Virus record (IMG/VR): IMGVR_UViG_3300037070_006048
Span: 1 to 30,369 of that record
Direction: 5' to 3' (one strand)
Length of the DNA: 30,369 bases
Source of the DNA: a virus
A program made the translations under genes and the position numbers. Position 1 is the stretch's first letter; every line of letters starts with the position of its first letter. A model generated the notes under the pieces. The model saw only the letters and a list, made by a program, of their open reading frames with translations, was not told the DNA's origin and did not search any database. This document shows positions 3,626 to 20,874 of this stretch, piece by piece.

Positions 3626-4531
3626 TTACACGTTCCCTTTGAGCCAGGTGATGACGGCGTCCCGGACCAGGATCGAGCTCCCGTTCTCAATTGGCAGGTT
3701 CCAATACTTGAAAGCGTGGGTCTGTTCGATCACTGGCACCGTCGCGAGCTTGAACGTGTTCGGCTCCGGCGTGTCGGCCTGGCTCTCGGTCATCCCGCAT
3801 TTCAGCAGGCCCCGGATCAGGCTCGGGAACTGGAACGTGTCCACTCCGCCCGAGTCGTCGCTCGAGATCAACGCGAAGATCGGCGGGAGATTGTCTCGTT
3901 CCGCGTAGGTGAGCGGCGAGGCTTTGCGCAACGCCTTCATGTCCCAGGGACCATCGGGGAAGGTGTCCGGGATATCGACGTAGTTGGTGATCGCGTCGTG
4001 GTAGTTAGTCTCCCCGGGCGGATAATCGACTTTGAGATGGGCCTCGTCGTCGAACTGGTAGACCCCGCTGCATAGCACAACCAGGTCGGGCTTGTCATCG
4101 CCCCACTTCCCGCGCGCCGCCATGTACATCGCGTGCGAAGCGCCGGCCGATCCGCCGATACAATAAACGCGACCGTCACACCGTGGATGCGCGCGCGCAG
4201 CTCGCACGGCCGCCCGGCAATCGTCGCTCTGTTTCGGGTAATGACCCTCGTCGCCTACCGTGTTCTGACCTGGGGCCTGGTGGTTGGGCTCGTTCATCGC
4301 GTCGTGCGGTGGGGCCAGGCGATACTCGCTCGGGATCCCGATAAACCCGGCCCGGGCCAGATCGTCGGCCACGTTGAGCGGTCCCATCTCGCCCGACTTG
4401 AACCCGCCCGGGTGCCAGACAAGGCAGGCCGGGGCTTTCTCCGAGCCTGGCGGGAGGATGATGGACCATAGCAGTTGCACGCCACTGGAGGCGGTTCTAA
4501 AGGGGATTCGATCTGGTCGTTGTTGAGGCAT
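3626..4531 (-). CDS. Stand-alone alpha/beta-hydrolase, acetyl-esterase/HSL type
   Basis: A 301-residue esterase-like protein. Residues 38-48 (VWHPGGFKSG) match the oxyanion-hole region of the hormone-sensitive-lipase/acetyl-esterase family (usually HGG; here HPGG). SEYRLAPP (68-75) is the family's YRL.P motif, and GGSAGAS (126-132) carries the nucleophile Ser128 in G-x-S-x-G. His272 (IEQTHAF) and an Asp near 225-230 would complete the triad. There is no signal peptide. It is clearly paralogous to residues 1-325 of the 1230-aa protein encoded at 5804-9496 (shared stretches EYRLAPP, GHYPKQ, DGRVY, IGGSAG, PGETN). In a tail operon the likely job is removing acyl groups from host surface polysaccharide; the substrate is not readable. 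Confidence 0.85.
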   Translation of the reverse strand: MPQQRPDRIPFRTASSGVQLLWSIILPPGSEKAPACLVWHPGGFKSGEMGPLNVADDLARAGFIGIPSEYRLAPPHDAMNEPNHQAPGQNTVGDEGHYPKQSDDCRAAVRAARAHPRCDGRVYCIGGSAGASHAMYMAARGKWGDDKPDLVVLCSGVYQFDDEAHLKVDYPPGETNYHDAITNYVDIPDTFPDGPWDMKALRKASPLTYAERDNLPPIFALISSDDSGGVDTFQFPSLIRGLLKCGMTESQADTPEPNTFKLATVPVIEQTHAFKYWNLPIENGSSILVRDAVITWLKGNV

Positions 4532-4562: not shown

Positions 4563-5153
4563 TTATGGGATCGGGTAAATTGTGACGTAAAAGGAAATCG
4601 TCCCGGTGTTGATGCTGTTCGCCATCTGCCGGATGACCAGTGAGCTCGAGATTGACATAACGGCGGCCGCGTTCGCGCCCCAATTGTTCGCGGTCGGGCT
4701 GCTGGTCGCGGCCGGGGCGGTCGTTTGCAGCATTTGTGTCCCTCCGCCCGCTGCCGCGTCGAAAAGTGCGAGCGTCCCGGCGGCCATCGATCCGGTTTGC
4801 GTCTCGTTCACGAACCAACTGCACGCCGTGACGGCGGTATTGCCGCGCACCGCCCAACGGGTAACCCCGGCCGGGAGCGTGATCGTCGCGATATCCCTCG
4901 GGTTGCCGCTCGTCGTGATCGCCTGGCTTTTGAGGTAAAACGTGATCGCCCCGTTAATGACGGTGGCGTCGGCGGCCGTGGTCGTCATTTGCGCCTGGTT
5001 GATCGCGCCGGTCAGTTGGCTCCCGGCGATTGATTTGTTCGTGAGCGTTTGGGTCCCGTTGGTCGTGACGTTGCCCCCGGGGATCTGGATCTTTTGGGCG
5101 GATGCGGTCGCGATCGCCGCGACCAGGAAGCTAAGAGCAAGAATGTTTTTCAT
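4563..5153 (-). CDS. Signal-peptide protein with tail-fibre-like sequence
   Basis: A 196-residue protein. It opens with a classic signal peptide, MKNILALSFLVAAIATASAQ, with cleavage expected after ASA. The mature part has GTQTLTNKSIAGSQLTGAI, a phrase common in phage tail-fibre shafts, and an Ala/Thr-rich beta-type C-terminal half ending TGTISFYVTIYPIP, like fibre tip domains. The ATG at 5153 is chosen over a TTG at 5168 because the signal peptide then starts correctly and the ATG lies 4 bases after the upstream stop. No Shine-Dalgarno is visible. A secretion signal is unusual for an assembled tail fibre; a secreted phage-encoded surface protein is the alternative. Confidence 0.7.
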   Translation of the reverse strand: MKNILALSFLVAAIATASAQKIQIPGGNVTTNGTQTLTNKSIAGSQLTGAINQAQMTTTAADATVINGAITFYLKSQAITTSGNPRDIATITLPAGVTRWAVRGNTAVTACSWFVNETQTGSMAAGTLALFDAAAGGGTQMLQTTAPAATSSPTANNWGANAAAVMSISSSLVIRQMANSINTGTISFYVTIYPIP

Positions 5154-5157
5154 AGTG

Positions 5158-5799
5158 TTAAGGTGCAATTTTCCAGGCGATATAACGAGGGGATCCGGTC
5201 ATCGAAATGACACTGACGGCCCCGGTCCAGTTGTCGATCCTAACCTGGCCGCCCCGGCCATCGTCGGCCGCGACTCCGCAGGGCAGGATGAAACTGAGTG
5301 AGCTCGTCGTTGGGCTCGCCCCAAATTTCACCCCGAGCGCGTCGGCCGCGTCCAGGTTTTGAATAAACCCAACCTCTCCGGCGGCCAGAGTAAAGACGGT
5401 TGTGTTGTCGGTCGTTGAGATCGTGAAAGTGCTGGGGACCCCGGCATACTGTTTTAGGACGGCCGTGTTGGTCTTGATCGCGTCGATATCGGTCGTCAGG
5501 CGTCGCAGTTTGGCGGAGATCGAGCCTGTGCCTCCGGCCGATGAGACAGAATCCGCCAAGGTCCCCTCGACTACATCGGCCCCGTCCGCGATCGTGACGG
5601 CTCCGCCCCCGCCACCACCGCCCCCGGTCGCGTCGACGTAGGCCCCGGCCGTGTCGACCAGGCGGACCGGGAGCGCGTGCGTCCCGTCGCTGTTCACCTT
5701 CACCTTGGGATCGTTGATGTTGACGTTGCTGGTCTGACCGATGGCCAGTTGGCAGAGGGCGAGCCCGGCGAGGGCCAGGACGAGGATCTTTGTTTTCAT
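5158..5799 (-). CDS. Signal-peptide protein with phage tail-type sequence
   Basis: A 213-residue protein starting with the signal peptide MKTKILVLALAGLALCQLAIGQ. A glycine run (about 59-66) links to a region reading GADVVEGTLADSVSSAGG, then SISAKLRRLTTDIDAIKTN, which resembles phage structural proteins carrying 'DG.D...G...D....G...T....LR.I..D' segments. The C-terminal part (VSVISMTGSPRYIAWKIAP) is beta-rich. The Cys in the signal region (LALCQLAIG) does not form a clear lipobox. It lies 4 bases after the 1230-aa gene and 4 bases before the next signal-peptide gene, so the two secreted proteins are an adjacent pair. Function is unknown; a surface or tail-associated role is inferred. Confidence 0.7.
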   Translation of the reverse strand: MKTKILVLALAGLALCQLAIGQTSNVNINDPKVKVNSDGTHALPVRLVDTAGAYVDATGGGGGGGGAVTIADGADVVEGTLADSVSSAGGTGSISAKLRRLTTDIDAIKTNTAVLKQYAGVPSTFTISTTDNTTVFTLAAGEVGFIQNLDAADALGVKFGASPTTSSLSFILPCGVAADDGRGGQVRIDNWTGAVSVISMTGSPRYIAWKIAP

Positions 5800-5803
5800 G
5801 TTT

Positions 5804-8800
5804 TTATGTTGGTGGATTTGGGACTACATCGCCCCACTCGTTCAAACAGGTGTCCGAAATTGTATTGACCGTGTCGGCCGGTGGCAAGGTTACTGCGAGC
5901 ACGACCTGGCGGCCCCATCGGCGCGGGCCGGTCAGTCGGTAACGTGGCGGGTTCGCACCGACCTCGAGATGTTTGTCCTCGGCGCGGGCCAGGAACTTCG
6001 CGGCCTCCTTCTGGAACATGCCTTTTTGCTGGAGATCGGCCGCCTCGTCGCTTGCTACCATGTAAGTCACGTAGCCCGCCAGGAAGGCCGGGAACGGCAC
6101 GAGCGCCCAATACTGATCCGCCGACGTGTTTCCCGGATCGATCCCCTGGACCGGCTGGAGCGCCCGGTAAACGTCGCCGTCGCTCCAGAGCTGGAGATCG
6201 AGAGTTTTGTAGAGTTTCGTAGAATCGAAATCGCTCGCGCTGAAATGGTAGGTGACGGCGCGATATTTGATGAACACGGTCGCACCGCCGAACCGGAACA
6301 CCTCGAGGCCGCGTGTGCTCATTTGCCAGGGGAGCGAGCGCGGGGTCGGCCGGGTCACGTCGCGCGGATCGCTCGGGAACACTTCCAAGACCTGGCCGAG
6401 CCGACGACGGCAACGCTGGAGCTCCTCGACAAAGAAGTCGTTGGCGGCGAGCTCGAAGGAATTGAAGAACGCGATATTTGTCGGGACCGTGCCCCTGGGT
6501 GCGTCCAGGAAACAACGATAATATCCCTGGCCGGTGACCAGGCCATCGACCCCGACCTGGCCCAGGTAATAGACTTCGTCGCCGACTTTCCAGTCGTCGA
6601 TCGCGTTCCAGATCCGGCGGAAAGCGCGCTCCTCGGTGATAGTCAGATCCGCCCAGGCGTGCAGAGTCCAGGCGTACTCGAGATGCCGGAAGATTTCCGA
6701 GATCCAGCGGCGCGCTCGAGCTGGCGTGAGATCGAACCACTCGATGGCCAGGAGATCCGCGATCGCAAACAGGATATGATCCCGGAAATTGAGCCGTTGA
6801 TAGTTGAGCGACGGCGGAGGGATGAACGAGGGCAGGGGCGGGGGCGGTGGCTCGATGATGATTCCACCCGTAAAGAGGTCATGCGAGTATTCGATGGCGC
6901 CGGGGATCCCGAGCGCGTCGGCCGAATACATCTCCCGGTAATTGGCCCCGTAGCCAAAGATGATATTGCCGACCGTGTTGGAGATCGTCGTCGGATCGCC
7001 CGCCACTCCGCCGTTCATGCGGAAGTTGGGATCGTTAAAGCAAAACCAGAGATCCTGGCCCGCGACGAAGTTGCCCCGTTGATGAATATCCCAAAGGAGC
7101 TTGAGGGTCCCGGTTCCTGGGGCCAGTGGCGTCCTGGTTGAAAATGAGTTGACCGTGGTTACGAGGCGATTCGGGTAGGCAAAATTGATGTTCCCGCAGG
7201 TCGTTTTGGCCAGGAAATTCGGGATATCAGGGTCGCCCGCCAGGTCGGCCGCCGTCTTGTCGAGCACGTCCCCGTTATTGCCGATCGCCGTCTCGATCAG
7301 GACCCCCGGGAAAGCGGCCGTTGCCACGTCGAAGAACCCGGTCTGACGGAAGCGCACGTCCAGGACGACATTGCTCGCCGTCGCCGTCGTGTTATTGGTC
7401 AACTGGACTTCGGTCGGGCTCGTCCAGCTCGCGATAAAGGTCAGGTTTGGGATCCCGGCTCCTTCCACGCCTTTGCCAACGTCGGCCAGGGTCCAGTTCG
7501 CGCTGAGTGAAACCAGGCGCTTGTTGCTGAACGTCTGGCCATCAGTGAGCGCGAAATGGGAGGTCTGCTTGATCGCCGTCTCGTTCATTTTGGCCGTCGT
7601 ATAGCCCGCCCCGCGCGTCGCGAACGTGGTCCCGATCGGCGAGTTGAGCCATTGCTGGTTCCAGTCGATCGAGGGATCGCTCGGATCCTTGCCGTGCGGG
7701 ACGTTCCAGTCCTCGGTCTGCGAGTTGGCGTACGCGATCCGAAACACCACGATCGACGATTTTTCGAGCGGGGTCAGGAGGTTGGTGAAGAACAGATCGT
7801 AACCCAAGCGGTTAATCATCCGCTTTTTGTATTTGCCGAAAGTCGGTTCCCAAAATACCGGGATCGTCGTCTCGTCCGGGCCGCTGTGGAATGGGCTCGG
7901 ATCGTTGTAGGTGAAGGTCGTGCCGTGGACCATGTCGTTGTTGTTCGGCGCGACGCGCGGGCGGCCCGCAATCGTCCAGGCGCATCCGCTATGGCTGCCG
8001 GTCGCGTTCACGTTCACCTGTGAGGTTGGGCTCGAGGAGAGTTTGGCGGTCGTCCCGTTGGTGACGGTGCCGATGTAGGTCGGCGCTCCCGGGATATCGG
8101 TCCCGGTGATTTGGCGGTGCACGTCCGCATCCGAGAAATTGGCCAGGGCCGAGGTAATAACTTCCGACCCGATCGTGACTCCGTCGGTCACTGAGCCGGG
8201 GTTCCCGGCCGGGGTGTTGCCGATCGCCGTGAAAACGAAATCCGGGGTTTTGCCGAAATTGGTATCCGCGCCCGCCATCGTCGCGATCGTTAATTGGACC
8301 TTCTTCCCGGCCGCGACGGCCGCCTGGATCCGGGGGACCAGGTTGGTCACGGTGTATTCGTAGACGCCGTCGAGCCGCTCGTAATCTTTCCAGTCGGTGT
8401 TGATCCCGATGCAATCGATGTTGGGGTCGTCGAGGATTTGTTGGGCAATGTCTTGCGACCCTGAGATCCCGACTATTACGCCCTGGAACGCTCCGCCGCT
8501 CGGGGGGATCGGGATCCCGCCCTGGAGCCAGGCAATCATCGCCTGGCCCGCTGTCGTGTGCCCCGCGATCCCGTCGATCGGCGTGTCCCAGACTTGGAAA
8601 GCGTGTTGGTGACCGGGCGATTGGACTACGTCGTATTTGACCTTGCGATATTCGGGAATGGCCAAGGTGGACCGGGTAAAGCCAACGGCCGGACTGGTCA
8701 GTTTGGGGATGAGGCCGTTTTGGACCTGGTCCTCGAGTGGCCCCTGGTCGCTTTGTCCGACGAGCCCGGTTGAGGTCGGGATCCCGAGCGAATCGTGGAC

Positions 8801-9496
8801 CGACATCAGGACATAACAGGGGGGCATGTCCGGGGTCATGTAAGTGACCGGCGAAGCCGTCGCGAGTAGCGCCAGGTCGGTCGGGTTCGGGAGGACCGGG
8901 TAGAGATAGGGGATCCCGGTGTAGTTGGCGATCGCGTCGTAAGGATTGGTTTCGCCCGGGGTTGGCGGCAGGGAGAGGAGAATCGTGTCGGCCAGGTTGG
9001 AGACGCCGCAGCTCAGGATCCCGCAGAGATCCGGCCGATCGTCCCCGGCCGTGCCGGTCGCCATCATGTAAGCAACGTGCGAGCCGCCGGCCGATCCGCC
9101 GATTGCATAGACCCGGCCGTCGCACTCGACCCGAGCTCGAGCTGCCCGGATCGCTCTTTGCACGTCGTCCGTTTGCTTCGGGTAGTGGCCGCTGTCGTTG
9201 ACCGTGTCCTGGCCGGGCACCGGGTGGTTGTTTCCGTTCGGTGGCGCGGCTGATTTCATCGCGTTCGCCGGAGGCGCGAGGCGATACTCGCAGGCCAGGA
9301 CAACGAACCCGGCCGCTTGCAGGGAGTTGCTGACGGTGCCGTTGTCGTGCCCGCCCGATTTGTAGCCGCCGGGGTGGAACATGCAGACGACCGGCCAGGT
9401 CGGGCCGCCGCTCGTCGGAACGTAGCGCGTCCAATAAAGGGCGACGTGGCCGGGGATCCCGTCCGCGTCTGCGTATTTTTCGTAGACTCCAGCCAT
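5804..9496 (-). CDS. Giant tail protein: esterase + glycosidase barrel + podoviral tail structural domain
   Basis: A 1230-residue fusion. Residues 1-325 are an alpha/beta-hydrolase: FHPGGYKSGG (40-49), CEYRLAPP (69-76), nucleophile Ser135 in IGGSAGGS, Asp235, His298. Residues 337-880 resemble a TIM-barrel glycosidase (GINTDWKDYERLDGVYEY at 364-381; a candidate acid/base Glu in SQTEDW near 595; NYREMYSAD at 852-860) into which two similar beta modules are inserted (about 435-512 and 650-722). A proline hinge (883-895) leads to residues 900-1230, which match a podoviral tail structural pattern: ARRWISEIFRHLEYAW, TITEERAFRRIWNAIDDW, GDEVYYLG and GYYRCFLDAPRG. The protein probably degrades host surface glycan while anchored in the tail. 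The reading frame is uninterrupted. Stand-alone paralogues of the first two domains are encoded at 3626-4531 and 13187-14068. Confidence 0.8.
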   Translation of the reverse strand: MAGVYEKYADADGIPGHVALYWTRYVPTSGGPTWPVVCMFHPGGYKSGGHDNGTVSNSLQAAGFVVLACEYRLAPPANAMKSAAPPNGNNHPVPGQDTVNDSGHYPKQTDDVQRAIRAARARVECDGRVYAIGGSAGGSHVAYMMATGTAGDDRPDLCGILSCGVSNLADTILLSLPPTPGETNPYDAIANYTGIPYLYPVLPNPTDLALLATASPVTYMTPDMPPCYVLMSVHDSLGIPTSTGLVGQSDQGPLEDQVQNGLIPKLTSPAVGFTRSTLAIPEYRKVKYDVVQSPGHQHAFQVWDTPIDGIAGHTTAGQAMIAWLQGGIPIPPSGGAFQGVIVGISGSQDIAQQILDDPNIDCIGINTDWKDYERLDGVYEYTVTNLVPRIQAAVAAGKKVQLTIATMAGADTNFGKTPDFVFTAIGNTPAGNPGSVTDGVTIGSEVITSALANFSDADVHRQITGTDIPGAPTYIGTVTNGTTAKLSSSPTSQVNVNATGSHSGCAWTIAGRPRVAPNNNDMVHGTTFTYNDPSPFHSGPDETTIPVFWEPTFGKYKKRMINRLGYDLFFTNLLTPLEKSSIVVFRIAYANSQTEDWNVPHGKDPSDPSIDWNQQWLNSPIGTTFATRGAGYTTAKMNETAIKQTSHFALTDGQTFSNKRLVSLSANWTLADVGKGVEGAGIPNLTFIASWTSPTEVQLTNNTTATASNVVLDVRFRQTGFFDVATAAFPGVLIETAIGNNGDVLDKTAADLAGDPDIPNFLAKTTCGNINFAYPNRLVTTVNSFSTRTPLAPGTGTLKLLWDIHQRGNFVAGQDLWFCFNDPNFRMNGGVAGDPTTISNTVGNIIFGYGANYREMYSADALGIPGAIEYSHDLFTGGIIIEPPPPPLPSFIPPPSLNYQRLNFRDHILFAIADLLAIEWFDLTPARARRWISEIFRHLEYAWTLHAWADLTITEERAFRRIWNAIDDWKVGDEVYYLGQVGVDGLVTGQGYYRCFLDAPRGTVPTNIAFFNSFELAANDFFVEELQRCRRRLGQVLEVFPSDPRDVTRPTPRSLPWQMSTRGLEVFRFGGATVFIKYRAVTYHFSASDFDSTKLYKTLDLQLWSDGDVYRALQPVQGIDPGNTSADQYWALVPFPAFLAGYVTYMVASDEAADLQQKGMFQKEAAKFLARAEDKHLEVGANPPRYRLTGPRRWGRQVVLAVTLPPADTVNTISDTCLNEWGDVVPNPPT

Positions 9497-9900
9497 TAGC
9501 GTTTAAATCCGTCGATTTGGACTTGGATCTTTTTCGATCGGCTCCGCACCCGCATCTCAGGGTGACGGTTCAAAGTGTCGCGCAGCGTGGCCTTGTCCCG
9601 GAACCAGTTCGGGCCGTACTTCACACAAAGGAAATCCCAATCCTTTTTGCAGATTGAGGCGACTTGTTCCCCCAGGCCCTCGATATGCGCCCGCTGGACC
9701 CGGGCGTTGGCGCGGGCCAGCTCGAGCCTGTCACTGGCGGCCGCGATCGCTCTTACTTGCGCCCGCCGGATCAGGGCCGCGAGGCGCGGACGCAGGACCC
9801 GGCTTGTCTCCAACTCGCGCAGGACGGGAGCACTCACGTTCTCCGGGAGCAGGATCGAGGTCCCCTCCTGGTCGAGCAGCTCCGGCAGTCCTGGCGTCAT
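9496..9900 (-). CDS. Small virion-region protein, possible head-tail completion protein
   Basis: A 134-residue protein. The N-terminal half is helical and rich in Arg, Ala and Leu (VLRPRLAALIRRAQVRAIAA). The C-terminal half reads CKKDWDFLCVKYGPNWFRD, then a basic tail RSRSKKIQVQIDGFKR. It lies between the capsid/decoration genes and the large tail gene, and its stop overlaps the next start as TAATG. The 'DF...YGP.WF.D' phrase recurs in small podoviral proteins near tail-tube genes, but this is recollection and weak. The start has no clear Shine-Dalgarno. A structural or completion role is inferred from position. Confidence 0.6.
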   Translation of the reverse strand: MTPGLPELLDQEGTSILLPENVSAPVLRELETSRVLRPRLAALIRRAQVRAIAAASDRLELARANARVQRAHIEGLGEQVASICKKDWDFLCVKYGPNWFRDKATLRDTLNRHPEMRVRSRSKKIQVQIDGFKR

Positions 9901-9917: not shown

Positions 9918-10005
9918 CGTTAAGAGCAGGGCCGGGGATCGAACCCGAGTTTTGCCCGCCAAAATGGCGAGCCGCCTTCCCACTTGGCTACTCCTGCTCT
10001 TAACG
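9918..10005. repeat. 13-bp perfect inverted repeat enclosing the tRNA-like element
   Basis: CGTTAAGAGCAGG at 9918-9930 is the exact reverse complement of 9993-10005. The outer helix is therefore 13 bp, well beyond a normal 7-bp acceptor stem. The enclosed sequence has further tRNA-like stems. The element fills most of the 121-base gap between two late genes. Confidence 0.85.
9924..9999 (-). tRNA. tRNA-like element, anticodon possibly UUU; degenerate or unusual
   Basis: Read on the minus strand from 9999 to 9924 the 76 bases fold like a tRNA. There is a D-arm GCC/GGC around AAGTGGGAA, an anticodon arm GCTCGC/GCGGGC around CATTTTG, a 5-base variable region, and a T-arm TCGGG/CCCGG around TTCGATC, a textbook T-loop. 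Departures from a normal tRNA are plain: the loop has A instead of U before the putative UUU anticodon, the acceptor/D junction has one or two extra bases, the base next to the T-stem is unpaired, and the acceptor helix extends to 13 bp. No CCA is encoded. It could be a real phage tRNA-Lys, a decayed one, or a tRNA mimic used for processing or termination. Confidence 0.5.
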
Positions 10006-10021
10006 AATTTGTTTACCCGGC

Positions 10022-10513
10022 TTACTTCGCGAACGAGACGGCCCCCTTCACGTCCATGAGCGGGTTGGGATTAACGATCCGCACGAGCACGTCGATCTGG
10101 CCCTTGTTCAAGGCCAGGAGAGCGGTGCCGGACTTGGGCGTCCAGGTCGTCTTGAGGATATCGTCGGCCGTGTAGACCGCCGCGCTCAGGGTGCCCTCCT
10201 GGGGATCCACGATTTCCGAGCCGTTGAGGTTGACCTCCTTGTTGGCCAGGACGGTCGCCACGCCGACGCCATCGCCGACGCTAACCCCTGTCGTGTTGTT
10301 CGTGTTATCCGCCGTGTTTTGAAACGGGATCGTGTTGCGGAGCTCGACCTGGATCTTGCTCCCTTTGGGGATCGGTCCGTGTTCGAGTGTTTGCGTGGTC
10401 GTGACGGTGGCGAGGGTGAGGTCGCCCGCTGTCACGGTGAAGATATGCGTGTATCCGTTCATCGCGGACACTTCCGGCGCGGTGAGCGGCCGGAGTCTGT
10501 AACTGGTTTGCAT
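10022..10513 (-). CDS. Probable head decoration or minor head protein
   Basis: A 163-residue, mostly beta-type protein with few charged clusters (YTHIFTVTAGDLTLATVTTT; GSKIQVELRNTIPFQNTADN; QIDVLVRIVNPNPLMDVKGA). It lies 33 bases downstream of the major capsid gene, the usual place of a decoration, cement or small head protein in phages with SU10-like capsids. AAAGGA lies about 12 bases before the ATG. No catalytic motif or signal peptide is present. The function comes from position and fold character, not from a recognised family. Confidence 0.65.
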   Translation of the reverse strand: MQTSYRLRPLTAPEVSAMNGYTHIFTVTAGDLTLATVTTTQTLEHGPIPKGSKIQVELRNTIPFQNTADNTNNTTGVSVGDGVGVATVLANKEVNLNGSEIVDPQEGTLSAAVYTADDILKTTWTPKSGTALLALNKGQIDVLVRIVNPNPLMDVKGAVSFAK

Positions 10514-10546: not shown

Positions 10547-11587
10547 TTACGGGTGAGAGTAAGCCAACGGGTCGATTTTCATGTGCTGCAAGGGGTTGCC
10601 AAACTCGAGGCCGAGGATCGTCTCGATCAAGCCTTCCAGGCCCGCGCCCATATAGGGGAGCATGGAGTGACGCAGATAGAACAAGGGCCGGGTCTGGACC
10701 TTGGTCATATCGAGCGCGTAGCCTCGTGTCACGTAGGGCATGAAGCTGCATTGTTCGATCTGGACCGTGCCGTTGTCGCCCTCGAAAACGTCGATCCCTT
10801 TGGTCAACGTCTGGCTGTCACCACGCGAGAGCCGAGTGATCGCCGTGAAACCCGTTTTGTTGGCTTCAAAGCGGCCGAAATTCTCGCTGATGTGCGCCTT
10901 CAAGAGCGTCCCGCAGAACAGAGTCAGTTCCGCGGTGCCCCCGAGCTGGTCGTGGCGGCTGCGGAGCATGTCGTTGAGCTTCTTCTCCGTGAAGGTCGGG
11001 GTGACCAGGTCGCTTGCGACCAGGTAATCGGTGTAGATCTGCGCCGTCGGCGTCCGGTAATCCTGCGGGATCGCCGTTTGTGTGTCGCCGAAGGTGAGCG
11101 CCGCGCCCGAGGCCCCGATCGAGGTCCCATCGTTGATCGCCCGGCCGAGCGCCATCAGCGCCTCGCCCTTGTCTTTCACTCCCTGATCTTCCTTCGCGTC
11201 CTGATCGCTCAGGAGCACGGTTTCAACGTCGAAGGATTGCTCGCGGATTTTCTTGGCCTTTTGGCCCTTATAATCCTGGCTTGCGCCCAAGAGCCCGCCG
11301 AGTTCTTCCGCCTCGGTCGTGACCATCGGGGTCCGCCAGAATTTCTGTTTCCGGTTGTAGAGCTTTTTCGCGTTGTCGCCTTCAAAGGCGTAAACGTCGA
11401 TTCCTTCCGGCACCGGAGCAGTCCGGCGCGCATTGGATTTCTCGACACCCCATCCATAAGGGCTGTCCATCATTTTCGGCCCCTTACGCACGCGGGCCAA
11501 GAATGTGACATTACGGTCGTCGGCGAGGATGAGCGCATCGCTCAGATCCTCATGGCGGACCTGGTCCGCCTTGGTAACTCCCGGCAT
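10547..11587 (-). CDS. Major capsid protein, SU10/DUF5309-like
   Basis: A 346-residue protein. The segment KKLYNRKQKFWRTPMVT, followed by EELGGLL and KIREQSFDVETVLLSDQDAK, matches the N-arm/spine-helix pattern of SU10-like (DUF5309) HK97-fold capsid proteins, in which 'R..N..Q.F...V.VS.T' precedes a long helix 'A...ELK.D.E...L'. Size and place after the scaffold gene fit. The ATG at 11587 is chosen because AAGGAG sits about 8 bases upstream; the longer in-frame ORF (11650) would overlap the scaffold end and adds a Trp-rich stretch encoded by spacer. It should form the icosahedral shell. The exact capsid family is a judgement by eye. Confidence 0.8.
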   Translation of the reverse strand: MPGVTKADQVRHEDLSDALILADDRNVTFLARVRKGPKMMDSPYGWGVEKSNARRTAPVPEGIDVYAFEGDNAKKLYNRKQKFWRTPMVTTEAEELGGLLGASQDYKGQKAKKIREQSFDVETVLLSDQDAKEDQGVKDKGEALMALGRAINDGTSIGASGAALTFGDTQTAIPQDYRTPTAQIYTDYLVASDLVTPTFTEKKLNDMLRSRHDQLGGTAELTLFCGTLLKAHISENFGRFEANKTGFTAITRLSRGDSQTLTKGIDVFEGDNGTVQIEQCSFMPYVTRGYALDMTKVQTRPLFYLRHSMLPYMGAGLEGLIETILGLEFGNPLQHMKIDPLAYSHP

Positions 11588-11618
11588 AGTAAATTCTCCT
11601 TGGTTAGTTGTTGGTTTT

Positions 11619-12821
11619 TCAGACCATCGCCAACCCCACCCCACCCCCACCCTGGGCTTCGCTCAGGGCCTCGACATAATCAGCGTAGTCCTCATCGGTC
11701 TGGCTGCTGGCGAGGTATTTGGCGCGGGCTTCCTTCACGGACGTATCGGCCCCTGGGGCCGGTGGCGTTCCGCGAGCCGCCGAGGGCACGGCCGGAGCAC
11801 GCTTGGGTTTCGGTGCGAGAAACGGTTGCAACTTGGGATCCACACTCGAGGACGGAGCGGCCGCTGCGCGCGCCGCCTGGGCCGGGAGCAGTCCGGCCGC
11901 GATCAGTTCTTCCTGTTGCTCGATCGCCGCCCTGGCCAGGGTCGCCGCGATCCAGCGACCGTTGATAGCGGTCTTGAGCGCCGGGAATTGCTCCAGCGTT
12001 TGGCTCGTCCATTTCGACATGTCACTCTCGGGATCACGCAGCTCGGGATGTTTGGTTTCGACGTGACGCTCCCACCCTGGGCGGAGCTCCTCCGCTTTTA
12101 CTTGCGCGGCCGCCTGCTGTCCTTCCTGCTGGATCTGGATCCGGCGGGCCGGGATCTGCTTCGCGATCGCGTGGTTGGCCTTGACCAACATCTCGCGAAC
12201 CTCTTGCGGCGTGAAATCCTTCGTCTCTTTCGAGTCGCCCTCTCCCACTTCTATCCCGAAAGCGCCGTCCAGGTTAAGGATGGCCCAATCGTGGATCTGT
12301 TCCGCGATGCGGAGGTGTTCGTCCAACGCCTCCATCGTCTTGAGGTTCTCGTATGGATTGCCGGAGCGCGCTGGCTGATCGGCCGGTGCGGCCGGTGGAG
12401 TCTTTTCGCCTGGCTGCTTTTCGAGGAGAGCCGTGAGTCTCTTGATCTCGGCGTCTTTCTCGGCCACTTGCGGCTCCAGTTCCCCTTTTATTTTGCCGGT
12501 GAGTGCGTCGATCCGGGCCAGGAGTTTCGGGTCGGTGTTGCGACGCTGTTCCTCCGTGAGCTCGGTCCCTTGCTGCGGAGCAGTCGATTGCTGCTCCTGG
12601 TGTTGCGGTTGCTGTTTCTCGACCTTGGCCCTGGCGCGATCCAGGATCTCCTTGGGCACGTCCATGAGTTCCAGCATCTCGAGCTCGGGCGCGCGGTCAT
12701 CGACCGGCTCCGAGTGGGTTTGCTGTTCTCCTGAGCGGTCCTGTGGCCCTGGTGAGGCGACGTTGGCGCTGGTCTGACTTTCCCCGGTGACGCCCGGAGC
12801 GGCGGCTGGTTCAGCGTTCAT
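11619..12821 (-). CDS. Capsid scaffolding protein
   Basis: A 400-residue acidic, Ala/Gln/Glu-rich protein immediately upstream of the capsid gene. Residues about 50-100 are helical and glutamine-rich (LDRARAKVEKQQPQHQEQQS) and residues about 100-140 form a coiled coil (KGELEPQVAEKDAEIKRLTA). A more ordered middle (YENLKTMEALDEHLRIAEQI) and a disordered basic C-terminal part (APKPKRAPAVPSAARG) follow. This composition and order (portal, scaffold, capsid) is standard for podoviral scaffolds, which guide shell assembly and then exit. GGGAGG about 8 bases upstream fixes the ATG at 12821; the longer ORF start at 12911 has no such support. Confidence 0.75.
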   Translation of the reverse strand: MNAEPAAAPGVTGESQTSANVASPGPQDRSGEQQTHSEPVDDRAPELEMLELMDVPKEILDRARAKVEKQQPQHQEQQSTAPQQGTELTEEQRRNTDPKLLARIDALTGKIKGELEPQVAEKDAEIKRLTALLEKQPGEKTPPAAPADQPARSGNPYENLKTMEALDEHLRIAEQIHDWAILNLDGAFGIEVGEGDSKETKDFTPQEVREMLVKANHAIAKQIPARRIQIQQEGQQAAAQVKAEELRPGWERHVETKHPELRDPESDMSKWTSQTLEQFPALKTAINGRWIAATLARAAIEQQEELIAAGLLPAQAARAAAAPSSSVDPKLQPFLAPKPKRAPAVPSAARGTPPAPGADTSVKEARAKYLASSQTDEDYADYVEALSEAQGGGGVGLAMV

Positions 12822-12983
12822 GGAATAGACCTCCCAAGTGGCAACAACACTTATTTGGCTCGTGGCCCGAGGTTGGAGTGAAGGAATGGCCTCGCATTGC
12901 GGTCCGAGCAAAACTCGGCCGGAGAGGCAAAGTCAAAGATTCCGCTATGGTCGGCGGACGGGATCAGACGTGATCGGCCAGGA
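12822..12983. other. Non-coding gap between scaffold gene and small ORF
   Basis: This 162-base gap is one of the few real gaps in the leftward operon. On the minus strand it holds the scaffold ribosome site GGGAGG and a small hairpin (CCGAG, TTTTG loop, CTCGG) with no T-run. A TTGACT at the right place for a -35 has no convincing -10 partner. An open frame covers it but has poor codon choice and no start signal. Confidence 0.4.
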
Positions 12984-13186: not shown

Positions 13187-14068
13187 TTATTTGAAAATCC
13201 CGTTGTATTTGACCAGGAGATCCCGGTAGGCCGGATTTTCCCCGTCGGCCGAGTAGACCTCGACGAAATCCGCGCCCATGTTGTTCGCCGCGATGAAGCA
13301 CTCCTCGAGCGTGCCTTTGAGATCGCCGCCGACGCTCCCGTCAGACGCTCCGGTCATCTGGAACCCGCCCGGGTGCGTGTCGTTAGCCGTAATCAGGTTG
13401 TTGATGTAAAACCCGCTGTTACTTTTGGCGTTGAGGCCCCATTGCATGACGCCAAAGAGCGGATAAGCCAGGAGAGCGCGGTTGACGATCGCGATTAGCT
13501 TGGCCTGGGCGCTCGGATCCTTGAAGGGCGTCCCTCCCGCCAGGATGAACGGAGTTTGACGGAGATAGGCCGCGTAAGTGTCGACCAGGAGATTTGCGAC
13601 GACCGTCCAGGAGGCCATAAAATCCTCGTTCGTTTCCGCCAGGCCGATATCGGCCGGGAGCGGCATGTAGCTCTCGGTCTTGTAACCGAACCCGCCCATC
13701 GTGATGTAATCGACCAGGCCGTCCAGGTGGATGCAAAGCTCGCGCGTAAACCGGATCAACTTGGGCTGCACGATCGGATCAAACGGGAGGATCATGGGCC
13801 CGGTCCCGAACTGTGGCGCGGTGTAGGCTTTTGCCCCGGCCCCGATCAACCAATCCGGGTATTTGGAAAGGCAATTGACGCTCACGCCCAATTGCTTCCG
13901 CGCGGCGACGGCCTCCGCGATCGCTTTGTCGATTACGCCGAATTTGAAAACGCCATCCGACGACTCGCATTGGTTCCAGCCAATGGTTTGTCTGTCGCCC
14001 CCGAAACCGGGGTTACTGAGCGGGTTGCCTCCAATTTCAAAGAGGCCGTGCGGTCGTTTGATTCTCAT
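13187..14068 (-). CDS. Stand-alone glycosidase-like TIM-barrel protein
   Basis: A 293-residue protein resembling clan-A-type glycosidases. WNQCESSDGVFKFGVIDKAI (31-50) is the typical 'W...E...G.FDF..ID..I' entry into barrel helix 1, followed by strand GVSVNCLSKYPDWL. A candidate acid/base Glu132 sits in GGFGYKTESYMP after an Asp-rich strand (LDGLVDYITM), and ADFVEVYSAD (267-274) ends the barrel. The same landmarks (WKDYERLDGVYEY, SQTEDW, YREMYSAD) occur in the middle domain of the 1230-aa tail protein, so the two are paralogues; this one lacks the inserted beta modules. No signal peptide. It lies among head genes, between the portal-associated gene and the scaffold. A tail or host-glycan role is inferred; the catalytic pair is not certain. 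Confidence 0.65.
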   Translation of the reverse strand: MRIKRPHGLFEIGGNPLSNPGFGGDRQTIGWNQCESSDGVFKFGVIDKAIAEAVAARKQLGVSVNCLSKYPDWLIGAGAKAYTAPQFGTGPMILPFDPIVQPKLIRFTRELCIHLDGLVDYITMGGFGYKTESYMPLPADIGLAETNEDFMASWTVVANLLVDTYAAYLRQTPFILAGGTPFKDPSAQAKLIAIVNRALLAYPLFGVMQWGLNAKSNSGFYINNLITANDTHPGGFQMTGASDGSVGGDLKGTLEECFIAANNMGADFVEVYSADGENPAYRDLLVKYNGIFK

Positions 14069-14109: not shown

Positions 14110-14433
14110 TCACGGCCGGGTCGGTGCCATTTTCGCGGAGTTGCGGATCCGGCCTTGCACTCGGCGAGCGTAGAGAGTTGAGCGCAGATCGGAGAGAGCT
14201 TTGGATCCGCCCAGGTGCCCGGCGGCCGTCGTCGGATCGCCCAGGTAAGCCTGGGCGCTTGCGATCGAGTTGCGCTCGGCCGTGTCGATCAACTGGTTGA
14301 ACGCTCGCCAGGCCGGATGCGTGTCGGGCAAGGTGGTCAGGATCTCGTTGAGCTCGAGCTCGCCTAACTGTTTCCCCTCGCGCACGACCACGATCGGCGC
14401 GGGGCGGAAAATGGCCTCGAGGAATTTATTCAA
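14110..14433 (-). CDS. Small portal-associated protein
   Basis: A 107-residue protein starting at ATG 14433 and overlapping the portal stop (4 bases). The central part LPDTHPAWRAFNQLIDTAER resembles a short helical protein often encoded directly after podoviral portals, with the pattern 'HP.W.A..Q.ID...', followed by AQAYLGDPTTAAGHLGGSKA and a basic C-terminus. The N-terminus (MNKFLEAIFRPAPIVVVREG) is beta-type. No known biochemical role; it may act in head assembly. The resemblance is from memory and not tested. Confidence 0.65.
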   Translation of the reverse strand: MNKFLEAIFRPAPIVVVREGKQLGELELNEILTTLPDTHPAWRAFNQLIDTAERNSIASAQAYLGDPTTAAGHLGGSKALSDLRSTLYARRVQGRIRNSAKMAPTRP

Positions 14434-16670
14434 TAGCCGCCCCCTGTGCTCGGGCCTTTGGTCGTCGGGAGCGCCTTTTGCGGTTCGATCGCCGAGGTCG
14501 CCAGGGTCCGGCCGATTTCCGGGTTGTCCCGGTATTGCTGGATCTGTTTTTGGAAGAATTGCAGCCGTTGTTGCAAGATCTCGACCGTGTCGGGGTTATC
14601 GGCCAGGCGTTTCGCCATCCTTGGGTTTTTCGACTGGAACGTCGCGTTCGTCAGCACGTCGGCCCGGAGCTGGTGGTTGCCGTGCATTGGCGGCGGGACT
14701 TCCAGGCCGTTAAAGGCGCTATTGATCGCCCCGAGCTCGTCTTTCATCTCTTGCTGCGTGGCTTCCTGCTGTGGTCGGCTGATCCGATCGACCAGGCTCG
14801 GGTCGAGCATCTCGAGGCCAACGTCCGCGACCTGGCTCATGTCGTATTTGCCGGTCTGATCGAGCTGGAGGAGCTGCTGGACAAGCGGGATCATTTTGGC
14901 CGCGTATTCCTCGCCCAGGTTGCGCGGATCGTAGAGTGCCCGGATCTCGTGCTGCGCCTGGATCGCGCGGGCGTCCAGGTGAAACGGCCGGCGGAGTGGT
15001 CCGACCACGGCCTGGACTTTGGCGTCCGCCTCGAACTGTTGCATCAGCATGAAAGTATGTTCCAAGACCTGGGTGTATTCGGCCAGGATATCGAAGGTCA
15101 TTTCCTGGCGGTAAGCGGCCTTGAGCTCGGGATCGATGTTGACCCCAAAGAGCGGGAGAAACTCCTCCGCCCGCAGTTCCACCCGGTTCTCGATCTCGAT
15201 CGAGCGCACGCTCGGCGGGGGCAAATTCATAAACTGGTAATCGGTCGCGCGATCGACCCCGAGGACGGCTCGCGGGAGCGGGTAGCCGCCCAGGGTGTCC
15301 ATTCGGTTCTTGGGCACGATCAGGGGCGGGCCGAGCTCGAGCGCGGTTAGATCGGTCCGGCCGTCGCATTGCGTCTTGATCTCTTTCTCCCAGGTGTAGA
15401 GCTTTTCCGGGATCCCTTCGCTCGAGAAGATCGGGCCGTCTGTGTGCTCAATCCGGTGCACCACGTAGGGGTAACGGCCGTGATCGTAGTCCAGTTTCTC
15501 GTGCGTGGCGTAAAACGGGTTTTTGCCCTTGTCCCCGATCGCGAGCGGGTTGAACACCGTCTCGTAAATGCACGTCGAACCCTGCTCGCTCGTCCGATAG
15601 CGGGTGTGATAGAGCTCGTACATCTCCTTGAAGGTGCCGTCCCATTGCGGTTGGTAGTGGCCGGTCCGGCTGCTCGCCCCGTCCTGATAATAGTTGCGCT
15701 CGCCCATTGTCCGGCCGGTCCAGGTCGCGTTCGCCGTCTCGCCCTTGTGTTTGAGGAGCTCGGCCACGAAGTCCTCGCGGTAATCGCGCAAGCGGATCCG
15801 GCTGATGAGATCCTCGCGCGTCACCCATTCGCGATCGGCGATGTAAGGCGCGGCCTGGAGATCGCGCGTCTCGAGAGGGAAAAGCACGTCCACCCCGAGC
15901 CGTTTCGCGGTCCACCGCGGTTGTGATTTGTAGGTGTAACGAACCGGGACCTGGGCTGTGCCCATGACCTGGAGATCGTCCAGGACCCGGGCCGCTGTCC
16001 GCCTCGTCAGCACGTCGGAGATCTGCATCAGGAGCTCGATATAATTCTCCTCGTAGGCCGGATCCCGGAGCGTCTCCATGATCCGCACCATGTTGTTAGG
16101 CTTGCCCGTCTTGGACTGGATAAACATGTCGATCAACGGGAGCGTGAGCTCGTGCTCGTCGATCCGCTCCTCCTGAGCCCACTCGACCGCCATCAGGCAC
16201 GCCCCGTAGGCGTACCGCCAGTTGAGGCACAAGGGGATCTCGCGCCGGACGTTTTCCGCCATTTTGGTCCCTACCATCCACTTGAGGAACATCGTTGCCT
16301 GGCTCGTCTCGCGGGTGCCGATCGCGGGCCGGAACGCTTCGCATTGGATCTTGGCGTTGTAGCTAATGATCTTGCCAACCATGACGTGGCGGCGGACGTG
16401 TTTCTCGGCCAGGCGGATCCGGGTGTCGGAAGATCCTTCCCAGGGAAAGGGTTCGTCTGGATCGTCGGCGTAAGCGTGCTTGAGGCCGTCGTCGCTTTGC
16501 CCGTCCCATCTGGCGTGCCAATAGCCGTAGCAGTTATCCCAACGATCATAGACTCCGTTCAAGTCAGTCAGGGATTTGTTAATGGCCGCGCTGAGAGCCT
16601 TGATTTTCGGCTTCTCGCTGGCCAGTTCGATGAGATCTTCTTCGCGTTCGCGTTCGGTTAATTCGATCAT
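14430..16670 (-). CDS. Portal protein
   Basis: A 746-residue protein, close to the length of P22-type portals. The N-terminal region has WDNCYGYWHARWDGQSDD and DEPFPWEGSSDTRIRLAEKH, the 'PFP..SD.R.PLA......' pattern typical of podoviral portals, followed by helical stem-type segments. The C-terminal part is Gln-rich and helical (EILQQRLQFFQKQIQQYRDN), as in the barrel or crown of large portals. It forms the dodecameric ring at the capsid vertex through which TerL pumps DNA. It overlaps the genes on both sides by 4 bases, and the order TerL, small zinc proteins, portal, scaffold, capsid supports the call. Confidence 0.85.
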   Translation of the reverse strand: MIELTEREREEDLIELASEKPKIKALSAAINKSLTDLNGVYDRWDNCYGYWHARWDGQSDDGLKHAYADDPDEPFPWEGSSDTRIRLAEKHVRRHVMVGKIISYNAKIQCEAFRPAIGTRETSQATMFLKWMVGTKMAENVRREIPLCLNWRYAYGACLMAVEWAQEERIDEHELTLPLIDMFIQSKTGKPNNMVRIMETLRDPAYEENYIELLMQISDVLTRRTAARVLDDLQVMGTAQVPVRYTYKSQPRWTAKRLGVDVLFPLETRDLQAAPYIADREWVTREDLISRIRLRDYREDFVAELLKHKGETANATWTGRTMGERNYYQDGASSRTGHYQPQWDGTFKEMYELYHTRYRTSEQGSTCIYETVFNPLAIGDKGKNPFYATHEKLDYDHGRYPYVVHRIEHTDGPIFSSEGIPEKLYTWEKEIKTQCDGRTDLTALELGPPLIVPKNRMDTLGGYPLPRAVLGVDRATDYQFMNLPPPSVRSIEIENRVELRAEEFLPLFGVNIDPELKAAYRQEMTFDILAEYTQVLEHTFMLMQQFEADAKVQAVVGPLRRPFHLDARAIQAQHEIRALYDPRNLGEEYAAKMIPLVQQLLQLDQTGKYDMSQVADVGLEMLDPSLVDRISRPQQEATQQEMKDELGAINSAFNGLEVPPPMHGNHQLRADVLTNATFQSKNPRMAKRLADNPDTVEILQQRLQFFQKQIQQYRDNPEIGRTLATSAIEPQKALPTTKGPSTGGGY

Positions 16671-17793: not shown

Positions 17794-17800
17794 GGCTCAT
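17606..17800 (-). CDS. Alternative overlapping small ORF, 64 residues
   Basis: This frame overlaps the first 63 codons of the gene at 17149-17793. ATG at 17800 has an almost ideal ribosome site (AAGGAG with 5 bases spacing), and its TGA ends one base before the internal ATG at 17604. That would allow a two-gene reading: a 64-residue protein (MSHESSVATRSHRAAP onward, disordered, Ala/Glu/Arg-rich) coupled to a 151-residue protein. Its third codon positions are less GC-rich than those of the competing frame, which argues against it. Confidence 0.3.
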   Translation of the reverse strand: MSHESSVATRSHRAAPTTAEATGPAEPGAGRGRDDRLETNQPGSSKVTFEEQRDLPPAERAAEV

Positions 17801-18420
17801 TTCTTCTCCTTGGCTTGGGCGGCGAAATAGTGACGGCACCTGCTCTGCGCCCACTTAACAAAATCCTCTGCTGTATCCAATGGAGCACCCCAAACTTTGT
17901 AGTTGGCGTCCCTTATGTTGCACAACTCTGCCTCCGCCGTGGCGAGTCGGGCGCGAAGGTCGGATCTCTCCTGTTCACCGAAATAATTCTGGACTGCACA
18001 GAGTTTCTTGTATCGCTCCAACTCAGCCTCCGCTGTGGCGAGTTGGGTGGAAATGCAATAAGCACAGCCATCTTCCGTCGTATCGTGTCCGCAATCAGAA
18101 CAAATTCTGTCGATGGCTACTAATCCCTTGCGGCGCTTGTAGTCCTCCAACTCTGCCTGCACTAGCGCGAGGGCGGCTTCGTGATTGGCACGGGAGATGT
18201 AACTTGTGTCCACGCTGGCGCTCGGTTGCTGGCGCTGCGCGCTTAGTTCGCGTCGATTCCATGCAACGATAGCTGATTCTTGTCCGAGTGAGTTGTTATT
18301 GTAGGAACCACATTTTGCACAGCCGACTCTCCAATGATCTTTGTGCGTTTCTGCCAGCTCAGGATCTGGATTGCCACAGAATGGGCAGGGTAAAAGTTTA
18401 GGCGTGTCGCTCATGCTCAT
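17797..18420 (-). CDS. Lar-like zinc-finger protein with coiled-coil repeats
   Basis: A 207-residue protein. LLPCPFCGNPDPEL (9-22) with CAKCGS and a following IVAWNRR (51-57) is the pattern of the Lar/restriction-alleviation-type zinc finger (CPFCG ... C..C ... AIAAWNRR). A second cysteine cluster, CSDCGHDTTEDGCAYC, lies at about 108-123. Between and after them are three related heptad segments: ALVQAELEDYKRR, LATAEAELERYKKL and LATAEAELCNIRD, encoded by near-identical DNA. Lar proteins relieve or modulate type I restriction; whether this one does is inferred from the finger only. ATG at 18420 overlaps the upstream TGA (ATGA). Its GC content is lower than its neighbours', suggesting a separate origin. 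Confidence 0.65.
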   Translation of the reverse strand: MSMSDTPKLLPCPFCGNPDPELAETHKDHWRVGCAKCGSYNNNSLGQESAIVAWNRRELSAQRQQPSASVDTSYISRANHEAALALVQAELEDYKRRKGLVAIDRICSDCGHDTTEDGCAYCISTQLATAEAELERYKKLCAVQNYFGEQERSDLRARLATAEAELCNIRDANYKVWGAPLDTAEDFVKWAQSRCRHYFAAQAKEKK

Positions 18421-18804: not shown

Positions 18805-20874
18805 TTAGTAGTGGCCTCCGCCTTTCCAGACCATTTGCATTTCGTCGACGTAATCGAGCTCGCAGAGCACGGCGTAACGGAGGCAATCGACCGGATCCTT
18901 GCACGCCCCATGCGTCCCGTCCCGGCCGGTCCATTCCTTGAGCGCAAAGCGCAAATTCGGGCAGGTGTCCGCGATGAACAGTCGGGGCTCGTTTAGACGT
19001 TGCAGTCTCGGGGAAAACTCTCCCTGGTCGACTTCGTCGTCGTAGGCCAGGAGGGTGTTGATCTTTTCGATCGAGCCGTCGCTCCGGCTCGTGATGTTTT
19101 GCTCGCTCGGGGCCGCCCGGAAGATCAGGCCGACTTTTTCGCACTCGATAATGTTGGTGGTCGGCGCTTCCTTGGCCAGGGTCGGCGAGGAGGCATAGCG
19201 CGAATCCATCCAACGCTCATAGATCCGCTCCCCGGCTTCTTTTTCTTCGTCCTGGACGGCCAGGCCCGGCCGGGCGGGCAACGCGCGACGGCGGCCGAAC
19301 AGGCCCCGGCGGACCGGCATACGGCGCGGCTCGCCCTCCGGTTTCGCGATGTAGAATCCCTCGCGACCCTCGAGCCGGAAAATTTCGTCCCGGTAACGGT
19401 CCAGACCGAATCCAAAGGGAGCTTGCGCGGGCCCAGGACTGCCGTCAAAGGCCACGCGGCCGCCAATCGTGCCCCGGGTGCCTCCGGCGGTCGCCCAGGG
19501 ACCAGGATCGCCGATCCCTTGCACGTACGCGCTCGGCTGGTTGTGTCCCGTCGAGGGCCATTCCCGATAAACGAACCAACGGCCGGCCGGATCGATCAAA
19601 ATCCAAAGCATGAACCAGTTTCGACCTGGGCAAGGGTCCACGATCAGGTAACGGGTCCCATGCGCCGGGATCCGCTCGAGAGTAACCTCGTGCCAGGACG
19701 TGTTGAAGGTCGGAAATTGCTGCAAACGTGCCCGGGAGAGGATCCCGTAGACGCGCGAGAGAATTTTCGACCTGGTCGCGTTCCGCCAGAGCTTGTAAAA
19801 GCGTTCGGCCCCGAAAATTGATCGTTTCCCGGCCTCGGCCGTGCTCGGGTTCCAGGAAAATCCGTAGTAGGGGTTGTCGGTGATGTGAAAATAGACGATC
19901 AGCGCCCGCTGATTGCCGTCCGAGCCTGGTCCGGCGAGCTTGACCCTGGGGACCTTCTCGAAACGGCCGCTCGGACGACCATCCGCCCCTTTGATCGGGA
20001 GCAATTCGGCATCCGACTCGAGCACGACCTTGCTGCCGTGGTCGTATTCGTCGACGATCGCGGTGTAATTCTGATCGATCGACGTGAAAGTGACGAGCAC
20101 GATCCCGCCCCGGTCGCCCATGCGGACCCGCAGCGTGCGCAGGAGCTCGGGATCCCGGAGCTCGTCGCACCAAAGCGCGTCGAGCTGGTCGCCCTCCATG
20201 TCGGCCGGGTTTTGTTTGTAATTTTTGAACCAGTTCTGGCTCTCGTTAGGCAATTTGAATTTGTTCCCGACGAAATTCGTCCCGTTCCAGTTGATCCGGG
20301 CCGAGATCCCCTCCTTGAGCTTCCCGGTCCCGGAGATCCGGGCGCGGATATCGGCGGGCATGTAGCGCCAAAGGATCGGCTGCTGGCGGGCGATCGATAC
20401 GTCCTCCGAATCGGCAAAGCACCAGGTCCGGCGTTCGGCGGCCGCCATCAGGATCCGCATGATCTTTTTTCCGGCGTACTCGCTTTTGCTCGAGCGGTTG
20501 CTCCCGGAGATCCAGATCTCGAGAGCTCCTAAGATCGTTAGGGGTCCGGCCCCGCTCTTTTTCCGGCGGGCCGCTTCGCGCAGGAAATCATCCGGGATCG
20601 TTCGGCAAAATTTCCGGTCCTGGAGGTTCCAATTTGGGTTGACCAGGACGACCTCGTTGCCATCGCAAAGGAGCTGGTCGATCACGTTCCAGATCGGCGA
20701 GTTGTAACCCCTGGTGAAGGGATCCCGCCGCTCGGCGTTCATAATTCGCGCCCGTTCCTGCTTCAAAAACAGGATATCCTGGCGGGCCTGGGCCTCGCCA
20801 AACTTAGCGACCCGAGCGTGGACAGACTCGAGCGAGGGCAAAGGTAGGAGCGGATGAGGTATGTCGAGATTCAT
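18805..20874 (-). CDS. terL: Terminase large subunit (TerL)
   Basis: A 689-residue DNA-packaging motor with both expected domains. The ATPase has a Walker A-like loop ISGSNRSSKSEY (123-133) and a Walker B with catalytic Glu in LDALWCDE (231-238), followed by the coupling-type motif VLVTFTS (259-265). The C-terminal nuclease domain begins with RYLIVDPCPGRNWF, where Asp413 is the expected metal ligand, and ends with DPVDCLRYAVL (Asp660/Asp663), the third acidic motif. It should cut concatemers and pump DNA through the portal. No small terminase is obvious; the upstream 160-aa zinc/wHTH-like protein or another DNA-binding protein could fill the role. ATG at 20874 overlaps the upstream TGA, with AAGGAG upstream. 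Confidence 0.9.
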   Translation of the reverse strand: MNLDIPHPLLPLPSLESVHARVAKFGEAQARQDILFLKQERARIMNAERRDPFTRGYNSPIWNVIDQLLCDGNEVVLVNPNWNLQDRKFCRTIPDDFLREAARRKKSGAGPLTILGALEIWISGSNRSSKSEYAGKKIMRILMAAAERRTWCFADSEDVSIARQQPILWRYMPADIRARISGTGKLKEGISARINWNGTNFVGNKFKLPNESQNWFKNYKQNPADMEGDQLDALWCDELRDPELLRTLRVRMGDRGGIVLVTFTSIDQNYTAIVDEYDHGSKVVLESDAELLPIKGADGRPSGRFEKVPRVKLAGPGSDGNQRALIVYFHITDNPYYGFSWNPSTAEAGKRSIFGAERFYKLWRNATRSKILSRVYGILSRARLQQFPTFNTSWHEVTLERIPAHGTRYLIVDPCPGRNWFMLWILIDPAGRWFVYREWPSTGHNQPSAYVQGIGDPGPWATAGGTRGTIGGRVAFDGSPGPAQAPFGFGLDRYRDEIFRLEGREGFYIAKPEGEPRRMPVRRGLFGRRRALPARPGLAVQDEEKEAGERIYERWMDSRYASSPTLAKEAPTTNIIECEKVGLIFRAAPSEQNITSRSDGSIEKINTLLAYDDEVDQGEFSPRLQRLNEPRLFIADTCPNLRFALKEWTGRDGTHGACKDPVDCLRYAVLCELDYVDEMQMVWKGGGHY

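Follow-up and report, generated by a model that had tools for sequence, protein, structure and literature searches.

In a 30,369-nucleotide stretch of viral DNA (IMG/VR record IMGVR_UViG_3300037070_006048; hereafter the window), one minus-strand open reading frame (ORF; 5804-9496) encodes a protein of 1230 amino acids (aa; 133 kDa) whose last ~335 residues are a head-to-tail adaptor of the T7 gp11/SU10 gp11/P22 gp4 type. We propose, with a probability of roughly 0.6, that a short-tailed phage whose capsid protein is of SU10 type has its adaptor extended at the N-terminus by ~895 residues (an esterase and a possible barrel domain), and that the extensions form arms acting on glycan. The initial annotation of the window had described a fusion of esterase, glycosidase and podoviral tail domains in one polypeptide, with no strand given. 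The ORF was indeed intact, starting with ATG and running without an internal stop.

The adaptor part (residues 896-1230; 5804-6811, minus strand) was recognized from sequence, gene order and predicted fold. Relatives were taken mostly from the best 80 of 515 loci in a terminase scan and the best 80 of 591 in a portal scan; removal of 21 loci, all copies of this virus itself, from 187 left 166 for examination. In phmmer searches of the 7804 ORFs of these loci, the C-terminus matched stand-alone ORFs following the gene for the major capsid protein (MCP). The adaptor of L164 (IMGVR_UViG_3300010362_000394), the closest relative among the loci listed, matched with E 3e-29, and direct comparison of the two sequences gave 31% identity over 310 aa (E 6e-34). 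The motifs TEERAFR-IW, DE--YLG and GYY recur in this stand-alone adaptor. The initial annotation had quoted such motifs in calling the C-terminus a core podoviral tail protein; they exist as quoted, and the assignment is sharpened here to head-to-tail adaptor. The minus-strand gene order is portal, MCP, a 163-aa gene, a 134-aa gene and the fusion. The adaptor assignment is carried by this sequence relationship together with gene order.

An iterated search revealed 99 adaptor ORFs in 92 of the 166 loci (61 clusters at 90% identity). The MCP gene lay within 5 kb upstream of 85 of them, and a homologue of the 134-aa gene was directly adjacent in 50. An enzyme ahead of the adaptor fold was found in none of the 99; 88 started within 40 residues of the fold. 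The remaining 11 had apparent N-terminal extensions of 133-153 aa, which were taken as mis-starts because all were TTG-started, contained 39-48% Arg+Pro, had an in-frame start at the fold and were overlapped by an out-of-frame ORF. No adaptor ORF was truncated at its 5′ end. Truncation at the 3′ end affected nine, of which three were shorter than 150 aa; in these nine an addition at the C-terminus might have escaped notice. None of the 7804 ORFs matched the esterase, the middle domain or their stand-alone counterparts in the window (described below) at E 0.01. L164 resembles the window in its portal (34% identical) and adaptor (31%), and in having MCP and further small genes ahead of the adaptor; however, its 419-aa adaptor begins at the fold and has a short C-terminal extension in place of an N-terminal addition.

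Two other arrangements were noted among the relatives. L155 (7253-9517, plus strand) encodes a 755-aa adaptor that, like the one in the window, is enlarged by fusion; however, its ~435 extra residues are at the C-terminus, and Pfam found no enzyme family there. Two adaptor-like ORFs were present per locus in 7 of the 92 loci (L120, L123, L124, L139, L152, L153 and L161); in L120 and L124 the pair (387 and 320 aa) is in tandem.

An AlphaFold2 model of the adaptor part, based on 24 aligned adaptors, began with two helices; an inserted beta domain follows the second of them, and two long helices complete the fold. The predicted local distance difference test (pLDDT), averaged over 10 residues, was 74-93 in residues 21-80 and 141-290 of the folded part. 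In a VIA-align comparison each of the first 32 rows was a chain from a portal-tail, tail or neck entry of a phage, with Z scores of 8-12, a range in which, by the aligner's own caution (Z under ~13 for helical bundles), a match can reflect a common arrangement. These rows included cyanophage A4 (Z 11.8), SU10 (10.4), a Shigella phage B2 chain named 'Head to tail adaptor Gp50' (10.4), N4 (10.1), T7 gp11 (7box; 9.2) and the P22 gp4-containing entry 8u10 (8.9). The top five PDB rows of Foldseek, at E 2.4e-3 to 4.7e-2, likewise came from the neck or tail of phages.

The VIA-align rows after the phage entries were chitinases. They matched only residues 206-254 (Z ~7, 45 residues), between helices 2 and 3 of the model, so this stretch resembles a chitinase-borne binding module. 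Among three relatives' adaptors scanned for the Pfam family CBM_5_12, L155 scored above the cut-off, L124 below it, and L164 gave no match. The SU10 adaptor is described as having a fibre-dock domain and that of DEV a lectin-like domain (PMC9509320, PMC10925440). By analogy, we read the insert, which resembles a carbohydrate-binding module, as equivalent in position to these two domains and as a candidate dock.

Other searches did not place the C-terminus. Family profiles and PDB sequence searches failed to do so; in the latter, 'Head to tail adaptor Gp50' was the third row, at E 1.1. This was the best adaptor row, and the T7, SU10 and P22 adaptors gave no sequence-level match. Searches with the C-terminus gave only chance-level rows in phage records (best E 0.4) and none in genome contigs. 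Scanning of viral contigs with the adaptor alignment revealed two identical contigs and six weak relatives. The C-terminus is thus placed among virion proteins by phmmer, the L164 comparison and VIA-align, but not by family profiles.

Residues 1-328 (8513-9496, minus strand) are an alpha/beta-hydrolase esterase by homology. They matched Pfam BD-FAE (PF20434) with 31.2 bits (cut-off 26.8; E 2e-7) and PHROG 3341 'esterase' with E 1e-7. As the initial annotation stated, GGSAGGS (residues 133-139, containing Ser135), Asp235 and His298 are present; we take these three residues to be the catalytic triad, and HPGG (41-44) to be an oxyanion-type motif. A stand-alone paralogue is encoded at 3626-4531 (minus strand). 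It is 46% identical over residues 18-329 and keeps all three residues and HPGG. Esterase homology is firm, and we infer esterase activity from it. The free paralogue may act in the medium or form another virion part. Genome contigs contained no match to the esterase pair, and in phage records the paralogue matched Mycobacterium-phage esterases at best with E 0.2.

The middle domain (residues 334-880; 6857-8497, minus strand) is a candidate (beta/alpha)8 barrel, with motifs W--YE---DGVY-Y, TPDF and TEDW. A barrel, possibly glycosidase-like, is somewhat more likely than not; catalysis by it is less likely than the barrel itself. The pattern W--YE---DGVY-Y resembles GH35/GH42 enzymes. A stand-alone sister ORF (13187-14068, minus strand) weakly resembles the start of the domain (BLAST of the two sequences, 56 aa, E 0.003). 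When the first ~100 aa and this ORF were combined in a profile, five of the six PDB rows were beta-galactosidases (E 0.12-1.2), and for the sister ORF itself GH35 was a weak second-ranked NCBIfam row (E 0.11). The sister ORF gave no match in phage records at E 1. A MAFFT alignment of it with the middle domain was unreliable past about the first 90 residues and was not used. Two small modules lie within the middle domain, at residues 438-504 (67 aa; 7985-8185) and 651-716 (66 aa; 7349-7546). Their alignment score of 74 exceeded all of 1000 shuffles (mean 26.8, standard deviation 5.3, maximum 61), so they are evidently copies of one another. The first module had an E 1.4 match to the phage decoration protein 8eci.

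The middle domain is joined to the adaptor by a proline-rich linker, IEPPPPPLPSFIPPP (residues 881-895; 6812-6856). No in-frame ATG, GTG or TTG occurs at residues 857-1000, the nearest upstream being at 827, 831 and 856; the adaptor is therefore unlikely to be made alone. Gene order suggests that the phage has no other adaptor gene; in that case its virion must contain the fusion, whole or in a cut form. The ATG of the fusion ORF overlaps the stop of the preceding gene (TAATG). Two further IMG/VR records, IMGVR_UViG_3300037071_003817 and IMGVR_UViG_3300037119_005060, each hold the entire ORF, 100% identical. Six pieces from these records (14.8-17.5 kb inside the window) aligned with 0 mismatches and 0 gaps. 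An assembly join of separate genes, which the initial annotation had considered, is therefore unlikely. The same domain order was met nowhere else: scans of viral contigs with the whole protein, the C-terminus alone, the esterase pair or the barrel pair matched only these two contigs, and the whole protein had 0 matches in plasmids and none at 1e-3 in phage records.

Several of our results weigh against the proposed reading. The three-part architecture was seen in one virus only. The adaptor model as a whole had a mean pLDDT of 68 and a predicted template modelling score of 0.58, with one loop and both ends poor; the aligner's caution applies to its Z scores, and Foldseek alone gave no match under E 0.001 (best 2.4e-3). 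Fourteen of the 99 adaptor ORFs of relatives had no MCP gene within 5 kb upstream; some of these are on short contigs, and L117, L118 and L167 have a capsid gene further off. Pfam found no match to the middle domain, even with its inserts removed, and other family searches gave nothing significant, so the domain was not filed as clan GH-A-like (GH35/GH42). The five beta-galactosidase rows represent about three enzymes, none significant. Resemblance to the sister ORF was marginal: its local score (51) was reached by 12 of 500 shuffles and its global score by 15 of 500. By eye, one possible catalytic Glu region (TEDW/TESY) was common to the two, but no second Glu, whereas clan GH-A enzymes have two, on strands 4 and 7; the domain may therefore be non-catalytic. 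AlphaFold2 of residues 1-897, with an alignment consisting of the esterase paralogue only, gave a mean pLDDT of 30 and no fold. Of the glycosidase barrel in the initial annotation, what stands is a weak PDB profile match (best E 0.12); a Pfam match and a fold were not obtained. An esterase fold need not act either, since the DEV fibre gp53 has an esterase-like domain, yet tests of isolated virions detected no hydrolase activity on lipopolysaccharide (PMC10925440). Codon use adds an unexplained contrast. That of the adaptor part (5804-6811, minus strand) differed from that of virion and replication genes taken together, with none of 300 segments as distant, whereas that of the added N-terminal part was ordinary; GC content at third codon positions (GC3) was similar across the domains of the ORF. 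This contrast argues mildly against the added part as a recent import.

Adaptors with this fold assemble into rings of twelve, and that of SU10 serves as a dock for long fibres (PMC9509320). In the DEV adaptor, the insert that follows helix 2 points outward (PMC10925440). For the phage in the window, we infer twelve copies of the adaptor, an outward position of its arms, catalysis and a polysaccharide target. The adaptor ring, lying under the portal and above the nozzle, would carry ~12 flexible two-domain arms per virion, each ~93 kDa, on proline-rich linkers around the neck. The linker should emerge at the outer face, because the fold opens at its N-terminus with helix 1, which is adjacent to helix 2, the source of the outward-facing module. 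The arms would deacylate, and perhaps cleave or bind, host surface polysaccharide as the phage settles, doing the job of the separate spikes or fibres that other podophages dock on the adaptor. The initial annotation had suggested, likewise as a hypothesis, a machine of two steps, acyl removal followed by glycan cleavage. A stronger version, in which the adaptor ring is the phage's main glycan-processing organ and 12 covalent esterase-plus-glycosidase arms replace docked depolymerase spikes, is doubtful; if it were true, enzyme number and position would be set by core tail symmetry. The arm may be built from parts the phage already carried, since the esterase paralogue, and perhaps one of the second domain, are in the same genome.

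The proposed extended adaptor shares its fold with SU10 gp11, T7 gp11 and KP32 TTPA (structural match Z 9-10). Solved adaptor chains of this type are ~185-230 aa long, whereas the window protein adds ~895 residues before the fold. KP32 TTPA has itself been claimed to be enzymatically active, in a region of its helical part (PMC5440376; see also PMC5741709 and PMC7060351), and P22 Gp4 is listed as the one virion-associated lysin known from the neck at the time (PMC5380687). In the sections of PMC5440376 and PMC5380687 available, activity is ascribed to the small adaptor and no added enzyme domain is described; the window protein, in contrast, has a dedicated esterase domain attached. The esterase tailspikes of Moo19, B2 and G7C are separate proteins at the podophage tail (PMC11654681). 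Together with DEV gp53 they place an esterase fold or activity at the tail, as in the window, but apart from the adaptor polypeptide. Peru-2 has a separate lipase/esterase that is abundant in virions and not resolved in the structure (PMC13320782). The view in the initial annotation that depolymerases are usually separate proteins agrees with the Moo19 and B2 tailspikes and DEV gp53, but has to be qualified for the activity claimed for the KP32 and P22 adaptors. Its impression of an unfamiliar architecture is borne out by the relatives' adaptors and, within the limited literature searched, by the absence of any report of a dedicated enzyme domain fused to an adaptor; what is known there is spike esterases of podophages and claimed activity of adaptors. 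Tail enzymes are usually on separate spikes or fibres, which are readily exchanged. If the fusion holds, an essential structural ring protein can carry additional domains totalling ~93 kDa, and it would become testable whether the tail core itself can house an enzyme function.

The N-terminal domains could instead be binding modules, forming a receptor-binding arm that grips an acylated surface glycan. This is unlikely, yet it agrees with the DEV gp53 precedent and with a middle domain whose catalytic residues cannot be named with confidence. However, Ser135, Asp235, His298 and HPGG are retained in this protein as well as in its paralogue (46% identical), which suggests selection for catalysis. 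It is improbable that the protein is polyprotein-like, its enzymes being cut off at proline-rich linkers and working free at entry or lysis. The linker is proline-rich and probably exposed, and a free esterase paralogue exists downstream; against this, no cleavage motif is known here (none was searched for), and a plain second gene, such as that at 3626-4531, would serve equally.

We give still less credence to a recent non-functional accident, in which loss of a stop codon joined an enzyme gene to the adaptor gene behind it and the phage simply tolerates the product. Occurrence of the fusion in this virus only, as against 99 adaptor ORFs of relatives, and an addition that fits exactly between the stop of the preceding gene and the fold would agree with such an event. 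On the other hand, the triad is intact, the linker is proline-rich, GC3 and codon use of the added part are ordinary, the frame is open over 3.7 kb, and no usual start codon is left over at the junction. An assembly or annotation artefact is very improbable. The three identical records, although from differently numbered datasets, possibly come from one project or site; however, the long pieces of the other two are free of mismatches and gaps against the window, the complete ORF is present in both, and the reading frame continues through the junction, where a linker lies.

The record comprises the entire window, yet is a fragment, as the identical contigs extend beyond its end. Upstream of the fusion on the minus strand are the terminase large subunit (18805-20874), the portal protein (14430-16670), an ORF at the customary scaffold position (11619-12911), the MCP (10547-11650; SU10_MCP, PF17236, E 9e-25), the 163-aa gene (10022-10513) and the 134-aa gene (9496-9900), homologues of which directly precede many stand-alone adaptors of relatives. 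After the fusion, on the same strand, come two small genes, the stand-alone esterase, a GH108 endolysin and a nozzle/head-closure-like protein (134-1963). The last matched, by phmmer, the C75C1 'head closure' gene (E 1e-7), a ctxSa4 'phage stabilization protein' (3.5e-6) and an ORF of L169 (E 1e-31). Phage C75C1 (OQ984151) is distantly related: BLAST against a set of 39 proteins gave E 8e-34 for terminase, 1e-51 for portal and 2e-21 for capsid.

The two small genes just past the fusion (5158-5799 and 4563-5168, minus strand) encode hydrophobic leaders like signal peptides, which is odd for genes of a virion module; for the former, phmmer gave matches to five related loci, among them L163 (E 6e-11). 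A tRNA-Lys (TTT) gene (9923-9999, minus strand) lies within the structural block between the 163-aa and 134-aa genes. The corresponding slot in L164 holds a 208-aa ORF (7389-8015) that had no Pfam match and looks like a glycosyltransferase; this slot is possibly an insertion hotspot. Near the terminase gene, a Lar-like restriction-alleviation protein (PF14354) is encoded at 17797-18420 (minus strand), and the annotation of ctxSa4 likewise has a Lar gene immediately ahead of its terminase genes. An ORF at the far end of the window and on its other strand (28404-29762, plus strand) matched the integrase family (phrog_1), which suggests that the phage is temperate.

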